Of a stretch of DNA of 64,000 bases, positions 4,133 to 36,413 are shown piece after piece. Source of the stretch: Alphaproteobacteria bacterium CG11_big_fil_rev_8_21_14_0_20_39_49 (GTDB taxonomy: Bacteria > Pseudomonadota > Alphaproteobacteria > Rickettsiales > UBA6187). The DNA lies in the NCBI GenBank assembly GCA_002787635.1, contig PCXK01000007.1:444872-508871 (forward strand), given 5' to 3'. Both the position numbers and the translations under genes were made by a program. Position 1 is the first letter of the stretch, and each line of letters begins with the position of its first letter. The notes beneath the pieces were generated by a model that saw only the letters and a program-made list of their open reading frames with translations, ran no database searches and had not been told where the DNA came from.

Positions 4133-5488
4133 ATGGACAAGCAAATACCGAATCTCGTACAGTCGACTAAAGATCTGGCGGCTCTTGTAAAGCTTGAGCA
4201 GGAGGCATCTTTACAAAAAACTCCTGAGGATTTGTACAACCTTATAATTCACAAAACAAGACAGATAGTCAGCTATGATTTCGGTGTATTATGGTTAAAA
4301 TCAGGTAACGAATTCGTCAAATTCACCGACGTAGACTTAGATAATAAAAATGTTCCGGTTATTGAGCTTTTAAAGCATATAGTAAAAAGAAAAAGAACCG
4401 ATCCGATTGAAAAAATTGCTCATACCGACTTAAAAGGTCATTATGCCGATTCTGCTAAAGACCACCTTTTTAGGCATACTATTATTGTTGAGCTTGAATT
4501 GCATAAACAGGTTGTAGGTGTTTTAATACTCTCACGTAGTGAATTATGGCATAAACGTGAAATGGTGTTGCTGGACAATCTTAGATATTGTTACGCATTA
4601 TGTTTGGGGTGTTTTAATCCCAATATATTGCATCAGGCATTTTGGAAAAAAATTGTAAATAAATTCTTCTCAAAAACCAGTTATGCCGTAGTTATTTCTG
4701 CAATATTATTTATTTTATTTGTTGTGCAAGTGCCGTTGACGGTATTGGCACCTGCGGAAGTTGTTTCCAGTAAGCCGGTATATATAAGAAGTGAAATAGA
4801 CGGTGTTATTGAAAAAATACATGTTCCGCCAAATAATTTTGTGGAAGAGGGGACTAAATTATTTTCACTCAACAAAGAAAATATTCAGTCACAGCTTAAT
4901 ATATTAGAGAAAAAACTTGCTCTCGTAGTAACCCAGCATAAGATTGCAAGCAAGTCAGGGTTAAGTGATAATAAGCAAAAAGAAAAGATACCCGTTTTCA
5001 AAAAAGAAATAGAAAAAAACATAGCCGAACTGGAATACTACAAATACCTATTGGGTAAAACCGATATATATGCCCCAAAATCAGGACTGGTTATATTTGA
5101 CCGGACTCACAAGCTAGAAGGTCGTCCGGTAAAAACCGGTGAAAATATAATGCTGCTATCTGATGAGAAGGAAAGTGCGTTAGATATTTTCCTGCCTGTA
5201 AATGATGCTATTAATTTTAAGGAAGACGGCATAGTAAAGTTTTTCCTCAATACCGCACCAAGAGAGCCGTTAGAGGCTAAGATAACATATTCATCTTATG
5301 AGGCGGAAGTTACGCCTGACGGTGTATTGGCATACCAGATAAGAGCTAGTTTTAATAACGTCAGTGAAGATGAAAGCCCAAGAATCGGTTTAAGAGGTTC
5401 TGCTAAATTATATGCCGACAGTGTTCCTCTTATATATTACCTGCTTAGAAAGCCATTATCTTATTTAAGACGCAAAATCGGATTCTAA
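4133..5488 (+). CDS. GAF-domain/HlyD membrane-fusion fusion protein
   Basis: In this 451-residue protein, residues about 15-165 look like a GAF sensory domain (ED-LY-LI-TRQIV pattern, then VVGVLILSR). One transmembrane segment lies near residues 182-206. A HlyD-like periplasmic part follows, with IRSEIDGVIEKIHVPPN (lipoyl half), a coiled hairpin around residues 250-300, IYAPKSGLVIF (second half) and a beta-barrel ending LRGSAKLYAD. The GAF domain would face the cytoplasm, suggesting that a small ligand or signal gates the adaptor; this is inference. Such GAF-HlyD proteins occur beside M50-HlyD proteins, as here (2 nt gap to the next gene). Confidence 0.8.
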   Translation: MDKQIPNLVQSTKDLAALVKLEQEASLQKTPEDLYNLIIHKTRQIVSYDFGVLWLKSGNEFVKFTDVDLDNKNVPVIELLKHIVKRKRTDPIEKIAHTDLKGHYADSAKDHLFRHTIIVELELHKQVVGVLILSRSELWHKREMVLLDNLRYCYALCLGCFNPNILHQAFWKKIVNKFFSKTSYAVVISAILFILFVVQVPLTVLAPAEVVSSKPVYIRSEIDGVIEKIHVPPNNFVEEGTKLFSLNKENIQSQLNILEKKLALVVTQHKIASKSGLSDNKQKEKIPVFKKEIEKNIAELEYYKYLLGKTDIYAPKSGLVIFDRTHKLEGRPVKTGENIMLLSDEKESALDIFLPVNDAINFKEDGIVKFFLNTAPREPLEAKITYSSYEAEVTPDGVLAYQIRASFNNVSEDESPRIGLRGSAKLYADSVPLIYYLLRKPLSYLRRKIGF

Positions 5489-8167: not shown

Positions 8168-10306
8168 TCAGAATACTTTTAATATCAATATTATAACTAC
8201 AATGGTAGCCATAAAAAAAGTTAGAATAACGGATAATTGAAGTCCGTATAGATAGCCCATATTATTCACCGCTTTTTTGTTATTTAATTTGCTTATCTGT
8301 ATCGTGTTATTGCGGTACTTCAAAACAGCCCTTCTAAAGCCTATCCTGTCTTTTAATATATATTTTCTATCGGTGATTAGAGAAAGAATATTAGTTATAT
8401 TGCCTTTTTTGGTTATTTTCTCTAGCTCGCTTATTATCTCTTCGCGAATAAACCTGTTATGGAATGTCTCTACGGAATCCGTTACCAATTCACCTATATT
8501 AGCACATAATTTAGGAAGATTTTTTACCTTAAATGTTTGCTGGGCAACCGATAGCATAGCAAGGTTTTCAATGCCTTTATGAGTAGCCATATCAGGGAAT
8601 TTACTAAGGGATTTTATACGCAGCTTTACGGGCAGCTCTAACTTTGCAGCTATAAAAGAGGTTAAGTGCAAATCAAAATTATTATTGTTAAGAGGCTTAT
8701 CCTGCAATACCTCAAGTAAATCAGGTATGGAACAGGCATAAGCGTTTTTCAGCAAATCTGACTGACAAGGCATTTCGGAATTTAACTCATATAACATACG
8801 TTCAATGCCGAAGCCTTCGTATTTTTTCCTGAATAACTCCGTGCATCTTTGCATAACAAGAATATCTTCTTTTTCAAGATTGCCGGCAGATTTGTCAAAA
8901 TCTTTATATGAAGCAAGGCTATGTTTTATAATGTTCCTAATTGCCTCAATGCAATCATTATCGGATTTATAAAATGACTCAGCAAGAAGAAAACCTATAG
9001 CGTCTATATTAACGGAAACCTGTTTAACCCTTATCGGTCCTGTAGGATCAAGTAGCATTATATATTGTGCCACCATTTCATCATCTCTTGTAAATGTACT
9101 GTCAGAGTCTTCGGAGCCAAACCTCTTGCCGAGAATTTCCATTTTTTCAGATAGCTTTATATCCTGCACGCTTCTTTCAATCCAACGAATCAAAGTGCTG
9201 TCTTTTAAAAATTTTTTAGCATAATCCCAATCCTGATACATTGCATAAGCTAAATGCTTTTTACTTAAAAATCTTTTATTATTAAAAAGGATAGGTCGCC
9301 CTGCATCAATGTTTTCCGTCGGAGGCAATAAGTTATAACGCCGTCCTCCGAGCCACTCGCTCATTCTTTCAACATTCCATGTCTGCTTTATATTTTCGTT
9401 AATAGCACCCCTTAAAAAGTCAGACATATAAGGGCTTACATCTATCCCGTCAGTAACCATTCTGTATGTGTTTTTTGAGTATTTCAAATCTAATAAAAGT
9501 TTATCAGAAGCGTTTGAATAAGGGTTCTTTCCCCTGACGCAAAAAGCCGACATAACTCCAAGAGCGTGGAAATCAAGTAACCCCGGAACACCTTTGCCTT
9601 TTCCGATGGGAGCGGTGGAAGCTCTTGAAATACTTTCATAAATTATAGGCTGGCTATAACCGCAAGGCTCGGATATACCCTCACCCAGCGTAACGGAACC
9701 GTTTTTATTTATATAAACATTATCAAGGTTTATTCTTCCGTGTGTTATAGATAGTTTCTCAAATAAATTTATAACCTGTGATAGAGGTGTGACAATTTTT
9801 GAAATAACGGTCTCTTCATTAATAGAACCGTTCTTTTCCAAAAAATCTGATAGCTTTATACCTTCGGGTTTCTCTATAATCACCGTGAAAAACCTGCCGT
9901 TATCAAGAGAGGTTTTAATAACCTGTGCGGCAATGATATTTGTGAAATTATTTATGTTTTTTCCAAGAAGTTTGTTTATCTCGATAATTCTTGACGGATA
10001 GTGTCTATGTAAAGTTAACGCATAATATTTCGTACTATCATCTGCTATTATATCTGTAACTTCATATGCCTTTGCTAAAGCGGTATCAAATTCTTTAAGC
10101 GGTTGTTTAGTGTTTATTTTGTAACGTCCGAATACTATATCGGTTCTGTCAGAACAGCTAATACGTAAATAAATACTTTTACCTATCTGGTATTCGGTTC
10201 CATAAGAGTCGCCGCTAAGACCTGACAATCCGCTATTTTCTTCGCTTTCAATATCTAGCTCAACTCGATTTATAATTTCGTCTGCGATACCGGATTCCTG
10301 CACCAT
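8168..10306 (-). CDS. Serine/threonine kinase-like protein (likely pseudokinase), tail-anchored
   Basis: A 712-residue protein. Residues about 50-320 follow the fold order of a Hanks-type kinase: an N-lobe, an ExPEGIKL hinge, then HGRINLDNV where active kinases have HRDLKPxN, and GEG where they have DFG. The N-lobe strand that normally carries the ATP-anchoring lysine reads ALTLHRH. Key catalytic residues therefore appear to be missing. A long helical middle of about 350 residues of unknown type follows, with one C-terminal transmembrane helix (about residues 685-710) leaving almost no periplasmic tail. A scaffold or ligand-sensing role at the inner membrane is inferred. It is paired with the small membrane protein downstream. 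Confidence 0.75.
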   Translation of the reverse strand: MVQESGIADEIINRVELDIESEENSGLSGLSGDSYGTEYQIGKSIYLRISCSDRTDIVFGRYKINTKQPLKEFDTALAKAYEVTDIIADDSTKYYALTLHRHYPSRIIEINKLLGKNINNFTNIIAAQVIKTSLDNGRFFTVIIEKPEGIKLSDFLEKNGSINEETVISKIVTPLSQVINLFEKLSITHGRINLDNVYINKNGSVTLGEGISEPCGYSQPIIYESISRASTAPIGKGKGVPGLLDFHALGVMSAFCVRGKNPYSNASDKLLLDLKYSKNTYRMVTDGIDVSPYMSDFLRGAINENIKQTWNVERMSEWLGGRRYNLLPPTENIDAGRPILFNNKRFLSKKHLAYAMYQDWDYAKKFLKDSTLIRWIERSVQDIKLSEKMEILGKRFGSEDSDSTFTRDDEMVAQYIMLLDPTGPIRVKQVSVNIDAIGFLLAESFYKSDNDCIEAIRNIIKHSLASYKDFDKSAGNLEKEDILVMQRCTELFRKKYEGFGIERMLYELNSEMPCQSDLLKNAYACSIPDLLEVLQDKPLNNNNFDLHLTSFIAAKLELPVKLRIKSLSKFPDMATHKGIENLAMLSVAQQTFKVKNLPKLCANIGELVTDSVETFHNRFIREEIISELEKITKKGNITNILSLITDRKYILKDRIGFRRAVLKYRNNTIQISKLNNKKAVNNMGYLYGLQLSVILTFFMATIVVIILILKVF

Positions 10307-16393: not shown

Positions 16394-16468
<75 letters not shown>

Positions 16469-16580
16469 ATTCTCTATCCCAACCAATCCAACAAAGTCCA
16501 AAAACACTAGACAAATCAAGCTTTTTCTTGTAAAGCTTGTCTATTGTCATCTAAGCTAGTCCCTGCAAATCTAAGAAAAG

Positions 16581-16630
16581 TGGGGGCATAACCGGGGGCA
16601 TGTTTTTAAAACTTGATTTGGTATGCCCCC
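16581..16630. repeat. Left GGGGGCAT arm-type repeats
   Basis: TGGGGGCATAACCGGGGGCAT at 16581-16601 holds two direct GGGGGCAT units. A third, inverted unit (ATGCCCCC) lies at 16623-16630 just before the integrase ATG. The same 21-bp pair with two changed bases occurs at 24267-24287. They are probably arm-type binding sites for the Arm-domain integrase (inference). Confidence 0.7.
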
Positions 16631-16633
16631 AAA

Positions 16634-16801
16634 ATGAAATTAAATGACCGGAAATGTAAGAACGCCAAGCCTAAAGAGAAATCATACAAGTTATTTGATG
16701 GCGGTGGACTGTATCTTGAAGTAATGCCGGCAGGTGGCAAGTTATGGCGATTAAAATATAGATTTGGAAACAAGGAAAAGAGGTTGAGCTTTGGAAGATA
16801 G
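16634..16801 (+). pseudogene. Integrase remnant (Arm DNA-binding, DUF4102 N-terminus only)
   Basis: From the ATG at 16634, about 55 residues match the start of P4-type tyrosine integrases: KLNDRKCKNAKP, then LFDGGGLYLEV and LWRLKYRFGNKEKRLSFG. A complete protein would have about 400 residues with the R-H-R-Y catalytic domain. Here the frame stops right after LSFGR, and no catalytic part follows in any frame. The start sits beside tRNA-Gly and the GGGGGCAT repeats, the normal place for the island integrase. The deletion probably joined it to the truncated gene that follows. Confidence 0.85.
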
Positions 16802-30986: not shown

Positions 30987-31409
30987 TCATTTATTTTCTT
31001 CTTTGCAAGGAAATGCTATTTTATCTAAGAAGTAATATACCGCTCCACTGATGGCACCTGTTAACAGTAAGTGTAATGCTACACTACTTTTGTCGGTTAA
31101 AATTAAGACTATTAGGTAAATAAAAAATGGAGAACAAACTCCCCCAAGAATGTATTGATATATGTTTTTTTGTATAGAAGAGCTAATAATTATTAACGCT
31201 ATTAAATACGGCACCAATGTGAATAGCATTGTAAATACTACAATAAAAACAGACGAAAGGATTACGCTTTTTATATCAAAGGAAAAATTTTGTTGATAAA
31301 CAAAACTTTCTAATGATATAAGAAAATTGAAAATAAATATTGCTATATAATTTATCAAAACAAATAAAACAATGTGTTTAACATAGTTTTTTTGTCGAAC
31401 ATCATGCAT
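30987..31409 (-). CDS. Small hypothetical membrane protein
   Basis: 140 residues from the ATG at 31409, which has GGAG nine bases upstream. The longer frame to 31442 has no better site. Four hydrophobic helices (about 12-30, 45-67, 75-95, 100-130) and a short charged C-terminus are visible. It is very rich in I, F and V, with no family motif recognised. It stands apart from both neighbours (124 bp to the DUF1338 gene). The gap 30769-30986 holds nothing I can name. Confidence 0.6.
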   Translation of the reverse strand: MHDVRQKNYVKHIVLFVLINYIAIFIFNFLISLESFVYQQNFSFDIKSVILSSVFIVVFTMLFTLVPYLIALIIISSSIQKNIYQYILGGVCSPFFIYLIVLILTDKSSVALHLLLTGAISGAVYYFLDKIAFPCKEENK

Positions 31410-31533
31410 TTTACTAACTCCGCTTTCAAAAAACACTACCAACCAATCAAATAAACCTTAGCTAAAACAATAAAATCTGTTCAATCCTACATCAAGCAAA
31501 ACAATACACCCACCCATGAAAACCCTTCATTTC

Positions 31534-33173: not shown

Positions 33174-33213
33174 GACTCCGTAGCTCAGCAGGATAGAGCA
33201 ACAGATTCCTAAT
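33174..33213 (+). pseudogene. tRNA-Arg (CCU) 5' half, orphan
   Basis: 40 nt identical to the first 40 nt of the intact tRNA-Arg at 33325. It breaks off in the anticodon loop after TTCCTAAT and continues with unrelated DNA. It cannot fold as a tRNA. Its missing 3' half lies at 34955-34997, beyond the inserted element. Confidence 0.85.
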
Positions 33214-33324
33214 ATTAGGACTCATTCTACTCTGTACTACGATGGGCAGGAAATGATATAAGATATTTTAGTTGGTTGACCTTATATTAGAATTGAAGAT
33301 AACTAACTGATATATAAAGACAAT

Positions 33325-33401
33325 GACTCCGTAGCTCAGCAGGATAGAGCAACAGATTCCTAATCTGTAGGTCGGTGGTTCGAATCCACTCGGGGTCACC
33401 A
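33325..33401 (+). tRNA. tRNA-Arg (CCU), CCA encoded
   Basis: A 77-nt cloverleaf with acceptor GACTCCG/CGGGGTC, anticodon loop TTCCTAA (CCU), T arm GGTGGTTCGAATCCACT and encoded CCA. It is the only intact copy of three related tracts in this stretch and probably the one that supplies the tRNA. Confidence 0.95.
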
Positions 33402-33439
33402 TTTTTTAGCCCGAGGTACCACATAGGTACCAGATGAAA

Positions 33440-33928
33440 CTAGCTCATTAATCTAAACCAGTCACCCAATGTCATGTGAAGACGCACGACTTCATCTTCC
33501 CTAAGGTACCCACAATGTGCGATTGGCCCTCTAAGCATATTTAGTCTAGACATTACCGCTCGTACGGCGTCCTTGTCCCTAAACATATCACCAAATATAT
33601 CCCAATTTGCTATTATTATAACACCAAGCTCTCCAAAATCTGTATAGTCAAGCAGTTCATACGATCTAGGCGTAGTGCCGCTACTGACTTCTTTTTTATG
33701 TCTTTTCTCAGCTTCAACTTTAATATTCTCTGGTATTTTATCTTCCCACCATTGATCTCCTAGTTCCTTAAGGCGCTGACTAATGAGCAGCCTTATTGAT
33801 CGTTCATTCTTGTAGTCGGCGAGGGATTTAACCGTGACACCTAAATATGCGGCTGCCTGTTTCGATGTTAAATACCCACCTGATAAGATAATTTCTTCCA
33901 CTTCTTTGAAATTCAGTTTATTATTCAT
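33440..33928 (-). CDS. HTH / Swt1-like HEPN-domain protein
   Basis: A 162-residue protein. A helix-turn-helix lies at about 18-40 (LTSKQAAAYLGVTVKSL), then a charged linker. The C-terminal helical domain (DYTDFGELGVIIIANWDIF, then RLNMLRGPIAHCGYL) carries R-x4-H (RGPIAH), the catalytic signature of HEPN RNases, in the style of Swt1-type HEPN. HEPN proteins are common RNases in toxin-antitoxin and abortive phage defence. The fused HTH suggests self-regulation. It lies inside the tRNA-Arg element. Activity is inferred from the motif. Confidence 0.7.
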   Translation of the reverse strand: MNNKLNFKEVEEIILSGGYLTSKQAAAYLGVTVKSLADYKNERSIRLLISQRLKELGDQWWEDKIPENIKVEAEKRHKKEVSSGTTPRSYELLDYTDFGELGVIIIANWDIFGDMFRDKDAVRAVMSRLNMLRGPIAHCGYLREDEVVRLHMTLGDWFRLMS

Positions 33929-34005
33929 GCCGCTGAATTTAAGAAAGATTCTGGGAAATCTAAATGAAAAGCTTGGGGCGGAGGTAGTTATTAAAATTTA
34001 AATAA

Positions 34006-34455
34006 TTACCAAGTTGGATATAAAGTTTTTTCTTCCTCGGTGCCATTTTCATTGCTCCAATTGAGTTTGACAGCAAGTTTTTTCTTTGATCCCATATGTG
34101 GAAAGGATATCAGCTCCAGTGATTGTCCATACTCCAGAAGCTCTAAAGGAAATTTAGAATTTATATCATCCTTTGCTATAAGATCATTTCCTTCTGGGAA
34201 ATCAATATTAATATTGAGAGCTTTGCCTTTACCTTTGTTGAATATTTTTAGTCTATGTGATTTATTGCCTACTTTAGTAAAATTGGCTCCTAAATCAGCT
34301 TTGTCGCTTACTAGACTTTCACGTTTTTCTTTATCAATCATCAAAAGGTTAAGCTGATTCTGTATGCTTGAAAACTTTTGAGATTTATAAGTTGCGTATA
34401 TTGAGAACAACAAAGCAAATAATGCTATATAATCACTGCTATCTAAGTTTAACAA
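34006..34455 (-). CDS. Small membrane-anchored hypothetical protein
   Basis: A 149-residue protein with one N-terminal hydrophobic helix (about 7-24, YIALFALLFSIYAT). A short coiled region and a beta-rich domain (KSHRLKIFNKGKGKALNINID) resembling Ig-like folds follow. No family is recognised. It begins immediately after the zinc-ribbon gene (no gap), so the two are almost certainly translated from one message. Such anchored partners are common in small defence cassettes, but no function is shown here. Confidence 0.65.
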   Translation of the reverse strand: MLNLDSSDYIALFALLFSIYATYKSQKFSSIQNQLNLLMIDKEKRESLVSDKADLGANFTKVGNKSHRLKIFNKGKGKALNINIDFPEGNDLIAKDDINSKFPLELLEYGQSLELISFPHMGSKKKLAVKLNWSNENGTEEEKTLYPTW

Positions 34456-34725
34456 TTATTTTACCTTAATGAATTTATTGCCTTTAAACATGTTCTTCAT
34501 CTGCTTCTGAAGGTCCTCAAAAACTTCCTGACTTATTTCTTCAGCATGGGCACTAATATTTTCACTATTCCCTTCAACAAGATCATCTTTACTAAGCTCT
34601 ATATTGCATGACAGGCATTTAATGCTTTTTGCGCTATCATAATCCTCATCGTCATACTCAAATTGAGTGCCACCACATGTAGGGCAATTCAATTCTATTG
34701 AACGATCATAATCTTTTGTAATCAT
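34456..34725 (-). CDS. Small zinc-ribbon protein
   Basis: An 89-residue protein with two CxxC knuckles (CPTCGG and CLSCNI) 21 residues apart, framing an acidic loop. It is a classic zinc ribbon, followed by an acidic helical tail and a basic end. It could bind nucleic acid or a protein partner. It is the first gene of the two-gene unit with the membrane-anchored protein inside the tRNA-Arg element. Confidence 0.7.
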   Translation of the reverse strand: MITKDYDRSIELNCPTCGGTQFEYDDEDYDSAKSIKCLSCNIELSKDDLVEGNSENISAHAEEISQEVFEDLQKQMKNMFKGNKFIKVK

Positions 34726-35091
34726 ACCAGAATCCGTTAATAATAAATTGTAGCCTATTATAAAGGAATTTGCTTTATAAGCAAACTAGGTTTATCTAGA
34801 AAAAGTACCACGGAGGTACCAACCAAAATACAACTCCAGCGTGTACAATCGTAGATGGTCGTAGCGTAACAATGAAATAACCGTTTGAGATGTAGTGGAC
34901 TATCGTAAAAGAACGTAGTAAGATTCGAACTATCGTACCTAAGATCATGGTTTTTTCCTAATCTGTAGGTCGGTGGTTCGAATCCACTCGGGGTCACCAT
35001 TTTTTAGCCCGAGGTACCAAATAGGTACCAGATGGAGATTACTCTTTTGGATTTAATTGTAAGGCTTAGAGCGGGCTATTGTTTGGGGGTG

Positions 35092-35967
35092 TTATCTACG
35101 AAACCTTGCATGTATAGACTCTTCTATATCTATATCTTCTTCATAGTCCTCAATGTCTTGTGTTACAGTGATAACAGTCAGTATTTTTCCATAGTCACCT
35201 AGAGCCATAACATCTTCTTGTATTTCAAGATGGTATTGTCCACCAACCCAATCCGATAGTATTCCTGAGTCACTACCTTCTTCTGTAGTATTAGTGTTTT
35301 GCTTATTAAAAGATTCTGTTAGTGTGCCTGATGGTATTGGGTTTCCTTTAGAAATCCATTCTATATCAGGCAATTTTTTTAATGCTTCAGATTTAAAAGA
35401 GTAATCTACACTGTCGCCAGTAGATACAATAACAGCACAAGGTTCTTCAGCAAATTCTGTATATCGAATTGCCGTTGCAATAAAAGATGTTTTACAAAGC
35501 TCTTTAAGCCCTTTTATAGCAGCCAAACCTTCGCCTCTCTTATTAATTTCTGCCTTAAAAAGTTCACTAGGCATTAATAAAGCACAAGCAAAATTATCAG
35601 CTTCTTTTTCATAAGGGTCTTGGGATGTAAACCCTGATTGAGATACATGAATTCCATTTCCATCTGGTAATATTTGTTCAATATGCCCCTCTAGTAAGTA
35701 ATGGCCAATTTCATGTGCAATACTAAATCTCTGAAAACCAATATTATCAATATGTGTAGCATACATTATGCCAAAGTTATCACCTTGTTTTAATAGCATA
35801 CCCGAGACCCCTTCAACGTTGGAAGGTTTAGGATTTATAGTTATGTCTAACATTTTTGCAATTGCATCTAAATCAACAGGAAGTTTATGAAAATCATTCT
35901 GCTTTAAGAAGTTTTCGGCCTTTTGCTGAACATTTGCATAGCGATTATCTTTATTTGCCATCTTCAT
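35092..35967 (-). CDS. ImmA/IrrE-family metallopeptidase
   Basis: A 291-residue protein. The zinc motif HEIGH lies in FSIAHEIGHYLLEGH near residues 85-99, with a third-ligand region in EKEADNFACALLMP (Glu). This is the ImmA/IrrE/PezT-like peptidase fold, which cleaves a paired XRE repressor upon a signal. The C-terminal 130 residues are a separate domain of unknown type. Its start overlaps the 3' end of the XRE gene by 17 nt, the usual repressor-protease pairing. The pair could control the cassette on the other strand. Confidence 0.88.
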   Translation of the reverse strand: MKMANKDNRYANVQQKAENFLKQNDFHKLPVDLDAIAKMLDITINPKPSNVEGVSGMLLKQGDNFGIMYATHIDNIGFQRFSIAHEIGHYLLEGHIEQILPDGNGIHVSQSGFTSQDPYEKEADNFACALLMPSELFKAEINKRGEGLAAIKGLKELCKTSFIATAIRYTEFAEEPCAVIVSTGDSVDYSFKSEALKKLPDIEWISKGNPIPSGTLTESFNKQNTNTTEEGSDSGILSDWVGGQYHLEIQEDVMALGDYGKILTVITVTQDIEDYEEDIDIEESIHARFRR

Positions 35968-36301
35968 TCTTTTTTCTCTCAGATAACATTTTCAAAAAAT
36001 TTTCTGCAAGATCCATATCATCGCTGCTAAAATTTTCTACATGACGAGCTAATTTTGCTGCTACTTCACCATGAGCTGCAGGGTCATCACTACGACCTAA
36101 CAAGTAATCTATTGTTACATCAAGTGCGTTAGCAAGTTTCCTTAAATTATCAAATGAAGCTTTTCTACCACCAGTCTCAAAATGTGATATGGCTGATGGC
36201 TTCAAGCCAGTTTTTTCTGCAAGTTCACCCTGACTTAAGCCCCTTACTTTACCCCGCACATATTTTAGACGTTCTGCAAAAATATCTGCCTTATCACTCA
36301 T
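35951..36301 (-). CDS. XRE-family transcriptional regulator
   Basis: 116 residues from the ATG at 36301, eight bases after GGAG (an upstream GTG is too close to it). A Cro/CI-type helix-turn-helix lies near residues 8-65 (LSQGELAEKTGLKPSAISHFETGGRK), with an ImmA-cleavable-type hinge and charged tail. It is probably the repressor of the intergenic region 36302-36413, which lies between it and the divergent DUF3892 gene. Confidence 0.9.
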   Translation of the reverse strand: MSDKADIFAERLKYVRGKVRGLSQGELAEKTGLKPSAISHFETGGRKASFDNLRKLANALDVTIDYLLGRSDDPAAHGEVAAKLARHVENFSSDDMDLAENFLKMLSERKKNEDGK

Positions 36302-36413
36302 ATACACTACTCCGTAATTTAATAATTGACACTTCCGTATTTTTCCTGCTATATACGGATACGTGATATTTTATATTACATATTTTTATAATTTACAATA
36401 AGGAGTTTTTATT

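Follow-up and report, generated by a model that had tools for sequence, protein, structure and literature searches.

The locus at the tRNA-Arg(CCT) gene is an integrase-less, non-autonomous island of about 1.6 kb in the 3' end of that tRNA, and its set of three genes is a chance assembly, of two origins, in a decayed element. With good confidence, it can be read as a mosaic that combines an autonomous, presumably protective operon, encoding a zinc-ribbon protein and a membrane-anchored protein, with an unrelated HTH-HEPN chimera produced by deletion. The features on which this reading rests are given below in the coordinates of the window, i.e., the whole stretch of 64,000 nucleotides that was analysed.

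33174..33213, plus strand: duplicated 5' half of tRNA-Arg(CCT), 40 nt, 100% identity, found by repeat comparison
33325..33401, plus strand: tRNA-Arg(CCT), the integration target, which is also the target in Rickettsiales bacterium AM-377-L16
33357..33436: attachment-site repeat beside the intact tRNA, consisting of the tRNA 3' part and GAGGTACCACATAGGTACCAGATG
33440..33811, minus strand: HEPN part (C-terminal) of PDC-M34B, corresponding to chimera residues 40-162, with R133-x4-H138
33812..33928, minus strand: start of an excisionase-like HTH_17 gene, 39 codons, fused in frame to the HEPN part, HTH wing absent
34006..34455, minus strand: 149-aa membrane-anchored protein of phrog_6723, composed of an N-terminal helix, a coiled coil and a beta-sandwich
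34456..34725, minus strand: zinc-ribbon protein, 89 aa, ECs_2282 family (CPxC...CxxC), NCBIfam NF047912
34796..34950: the element's conserved end, non-coding, containing GTACCACGGAGGTACC and repeated CGTAG motifs, 86% identity with L036 11607-11712 (AM-377-L16)
34955..35034: distal attachment-site repeat, consisting of a partial tRNA copy and GAGGTACCAAATAGGTACCAGATG

Direct repeats of the tRNA 3' end lie at both borders, as expected of a tRNA integrative element. The full repeat unit comprises 93 bases of tRNA 3' end and flank (33357-33449 and 34955-35047, 92% identity), and its 24-base portion outside the tRNA, GAGGTACCAnATAGGTACCAGATG, occurs exactly twice in the 64-kb window and in none of 100 shuffles. 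The sequence-only reading had described a tRNA element with only three small genes and no integrase, and this description is accurate: the space between the repeats holds three minus-strand ORFs (33440-33928, 34006-34455 and 34456-34725), no further sizeable gene and no integrase ORF. Integrases with an Arm domain are encoded elsewhere in the same genome, and the CGTAG motifs of the element end are possible integrase arm sites.

The duplicated 5' half of the tRNA is probably the scar of a separate integration event. Within 33174-33260, unrelated sequence follows it, and AM-377-L16 likewise has a degenerate copy of this kind upstream of the corresponding tRNA. Just past the distal attachment repeat, 35092-36307 encodes an ImmA/IrrE-type peptidase (PF06114) and, in the same orientation, an XRE repressor. 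These genes may belong to an older tandem element whose far end can no longer be recognised. Two more distant features of the window are an Arm-DNA-bind_3 integrase remnant with an internal stop beside tRNA-Gly (16394-16800), which represents another decayed tRNA island, and a small multi-helix membrane protein of unknown family located between conserved genes (30987-31442).

Related elements that carry an integrase are found in a genome of the same family, that of Rickettsiales bacterium AM-377-L16 (L003, L004 and L036), at its own tRNA-Arg(CCT). In the direction of the tRNA, starting at the distal end, they contain a conserved end, GNAT-like cargo, a full HTH_17 gene, an integrase and more cargo, followed by the attachment site and the tRNA. 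The tyrosine integrase is truncated (172 aa, Arm and SAM-like domains). Attachment and end sequences are present in three copies, indicating a tandem array. The tRNA, the attachment repeats, the element-end sequence and the start of the HTH gene are shared with the island studied here, whereas the full HTH gene, the integrase fragment, the GNAT gene and the tandem copies are not. In L036 (G004:C23), hairpin-rich inserts of about 105 bases (GACAATTTGATGAAATCAAATTGG...) split the T-arm region of two attachment-site tRNA copies (around 4136-4310 and 8408-8587) and resemble Rickettsia palindromic elements.

Comparison with these elements bears directly on the first of the three genes. The DNA at 33812-33970 matches L036 12225-12383 with 93% identity over 159 bases, covering the HTH upstream region and the first 39 codons, and this homology ends at 33812, within the HTH domain, exactly where homology to HEPN proteins starts. 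By sequence comparison, 33440-33928 is thus a chimera of two truncated genes, the start of the HTH gene and the C-terminal part of PDC-M34B. Of the HTH-HEPN architecture that had been proposed for this gene, the HEPN half stands, with HEPN_Swt1 (PF18731) recognised above its cut-off (E=1.3e-10), while the HTH half is reduced to a partial match below the cut-off (HTH_17, profile positions 1-21 of 51, E=0.042) and does not amount to a complete domain. In the L036 homologue the HTH_17 domain is complete and the gene precedes the integrase.

The HEPN half corresponds to PDC-M34B, a component of the PADLOC candidate system PDC-M34, in which a DUF5343 protein (PDC-M34A) is combined with a Swt1-like HEPN protein. 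The match to the PDC-M34B model is strong (E=5e-29) and extends over profile positions 69-189 of 192. About 68 N-terminal positions are missing and replaced by the HTH fragment, so that the gene falls short of a full-length M34B; its close relatives are complete, with lengths of about 190-215 aa. The R-x4-H motif noticed earlier is genuinely conserved, R133 and H138 being invariant in eight aligned sequences that include the one from the window. The best structural matches of the HEPN model are the C-terminal HEPN domains of AbiF and Swt1 (8vz6, 4pqz; Z 6.2), but identity to these proteins is only 12-13% and their partners and architecture are different. A published HEPN survey groups the Swt1-like domains with Abi2/AbiF, in contexts of restriction and defence (PMC3710099).

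The usual partner of this domain is missing. Among the loci with usable flanks, five have a PDC-M34A-like (DUF5343) gene beside the M34B relative: L037, in which the order is the same, L066, L067, L089 and L090. A plasmid relative (L071) carries an M34B-type gene without M34A. In the window, tblastn gave no match to M34A, and the DUF5343 model found nothing in the genome of the window or in the control genomes, although the same model detects the genes of L037 and L067. Decay of PDC-M34 is not confined to the window, because a broken remnant with internal stops and pieces of both M34A and M34B is present in another alphaproteobacterial genome (L068, 4563-4951). Two other Swt1-HEPN loci, on Sphingobium and Qipengyuania plasmids, encode long proteins of 482-484 aa directly before a tyrosine recombinase (L069, 2957-5535; L070, 2936-5514).

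A deletion would account for this arrangement: the beginning of the HTH gene would have been joined to the RNase-type toxin PDC-M34B at its C-terminal half, with the integrase taken out and no PDC-M34A left. The product is probably a relic that has lost its function, though its HEPN fold is predicted to be intact. It could still be a working shortened toxin, because the 162-codon frame is open, R and H are kept and the HEPN part is predicted to be well folded (AlphaFold pLDDT 84-95 over residues 41-130). A related alternative would make the chimera a working new gene, a lone toxin or a regulator of the element, in which the HTH piece substitutes for the lost start of HEPN helix 1; in the model, a helix at residues 36-54 does span the HTH/HEPN junction. 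This is unlikely, since both parent domains are cut down, residues 1-38 are modelled with low confidence, the M34A partner is absent and a search for the fusion elsewhere returned no second example. In that search, HEPN relatives matched from about residue 33-42 and HTH relatives ended by residue 45; two weak plasmid matches (H7 and H8; E 4e-4 and 8e-5) begin at residues 13-17.

The relic reading of the chimera also bears on the larger claim, made from the sequence alone, that the three genes may form an undescribed antiphage or toxin system. Under this proposal, an HTH-HEPN toxin would be controlled or anchored by the zinc-ribbon and membrane proteins, and the arrangement of the genes, which share a strand and are enclosed by the attachment repeats, would fit, as would the conserved HEPN motif. 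Of the two findings named beforehand as refuting the proposal, variation of R and H is not seen, but the other is. The trio does not recur: none of 26 loci with the zinc-ribbon/membrane pair encodes a HEPN domain, and none of 13 HEPN loci encodes the pair. In addition, the pair stands by itself at this tRNA in the sister genus, and the HEPN gene, as a shortened PDC-M34B chimera, belongs to a candidate system that has already been described and whose partner is lacking here. A single three-gene system is consequently very improbable. The more general view that the island holds cargo of a defence type was nevertheless right.

By contrast, the zinc-ribbon and membrane genes are a genuine conserved two-gene operon. 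They abut exactly, as had been pointed out before, the TTG start of the membrane gene (34455) following directly on the TAA stop of the zinc-ribbon gene. Both families are present in all 26 pair loci (321 kb), and in 14 of 14 genomic and plasmid loci the two genes are adjacent, in the same order and touching or nearly so. In the sister genus (G002) the pair lies directly at a tRNA-Arg(CCT), which was read by eye from sequence with two masked bases, and is accompanied by neither HEPN nor HTH gene. DNA identity between the two loci is 85% and protein identity 81-85%. The dN/dS ratios of this comparison, 0.169 for the zinc ribbon and 0.182 for the membrane protein, show that both proteins are under purifying selection. 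Nevertheless, the pair can split, as some E. coli prophages, among them the filamentous prophage L076, carry the membrane gene without the zinc ribbon.

Elsewhere, the same two families (NF047912 and DUF8453/phrog_6723) are found on plasmids, in integrative and conjugative elements (ICEs) and in filamentous prophages, where the gene order is unchanged and the genes touch or overlap. The present pair, by contrast, resides in a tRNA-Arg mini-island of a Rickettsiales-type genome. Its identity to plasmid, prophage and chromosomal members is mostly 33-48%, falling to 21-23% for the membrane protein in distant ones. Among 5,426 E. coli genomes, 104 match the pair or part of it, with 74 places on plasmids and 46 on chromosomes. 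The carriers include IncF plasmids, the SXT/R391-type ICE R997, in which the pair lies between McrBC-type genes and mobH, filamentous prophages with zot and II/X genes, several of them in E. coli, and viral contigs of filamentous-phage size. Of 398 Pseudomonadota genomes sampled, 10 contain phrog_6723. Viral contigs gave no match when scanned with each of the three window proteins singly, and tblastn of the pair against phage records was likewise negative; with alignments as queries, the zinc ribbon was recovered at seven viral loci and the HEPN protein at three. A review of YpfPhi and CUS-1 mentions two extra genes of unknown function beside attR (PMC4266046).

The zinc-ribbon protein, which is small and taken to be cytoplasmic, scores 59.8 bits against NF047912 (cut-off 37). 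Its four cysteines (C14, C17, C37 and C40) are invariant in 14 aligned sequences, and its C-terminal tail looks helical from sequence. The membrane protein matches phrog_6723 (E=4e-31), a family named DUF8453 in the recent RefSeq annotation of an E. coli relative, and is modelled as one long N-terminal helix (residues 6-50) and a seven-strand beta domain. Because each of the 14 aligned membrane proteins has basic residues after its hydrophobic stretch, the coiled coil and the beta domain should be cytoplasmic according to the positive-inside rule, and a single inner-membrane helix with N-out/C-in topology is predicted. The beta-sandwich has many Ig-like fold matches of middling Z (best 8.9, a TRAP translocon chain), which are uninformative on function. 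A sequence search of solved structures gave no real match, and the PADLOC models did not match the membrane protein. An assignment of the pair to PDC-M14 was weighed but not taken up. The match to M14A is partial (E=4e-8, profile positions 10-99 of 152), and the top M14A of another genome is a dissimilar protein of 336 aa.

With this distribution, the pair is probably an accessory module with a putative role in anti-phage defence or superinfection exclusion. It may act as a “moron” that shields its host element from competing phages or elements, and protection is the inferred rather than the reported activity, as a literature search on the pair yielded no activity and no mention of the family names. 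Accessory genes of inoviruses provide a precedent, two of ten tested having excluded other phages (PMC6813254). By analogy with other two-gene systems that have membrane effectors, the simplest model would be a zinc-ribbon sensor combined with a membrane effector: the former would detect the invader's nucleic acid or a nucleoprotein, and the latter would stop entry or damage the membrane. Whether the pair in this form constitutes one undescribed defence or superinfection-exclusion system, common to filamentous phages, SXT-type ICEs, conjugative plasmids and Rickettsiales islands, can be put forward only tentatively, at somewhat less than even chance.

The same carriers are also compatible with a role in anti-restriction or in the establishment of incoming mobile elements, as opposed to defence, since conjugative plasmids, ICEs and filamentous phages all bear the pair. 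The zinc ribbon is weakly Lar-like (Pfam E=5e-4, 20.6 vs 28.6; TIGR03655 E=6e-4, 20.0 vs 39.6), but both scores lie under the cut-offs of the Lar families. The pair is also present in chromosomal islands beside defence genes, namely a type III restriction-modification system (L059), an Avs2-like protein with PifA (L062) and PDC-S06 (L058), a neighbourhood that may reflect a link with defence. Lar restriction alleviation is not known to involve a membrane partner, which further counts against this role. Anti-restriction is accordingly a doubtful explanation, and protection by an accessory module is preferred.

The HEPN trio is thus a false system, and the zinc-ribbon/membrane pair a real one that lends itself to testing. 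The locus is an example of how an island that loses its integrase can be left with only a chimera of a defence toxin gene. The part of the locus worth pursuing is the two-gene pair, which ranges over Alpha-, Beta- and Gammaproteobacteria and various types of mobile element, evolves under purifying selection and is known by placeholder names only. Since versions of it occur on plasmids and in filamentous prophages of E. coli, laboratory strains of that species can serve to test what it does.
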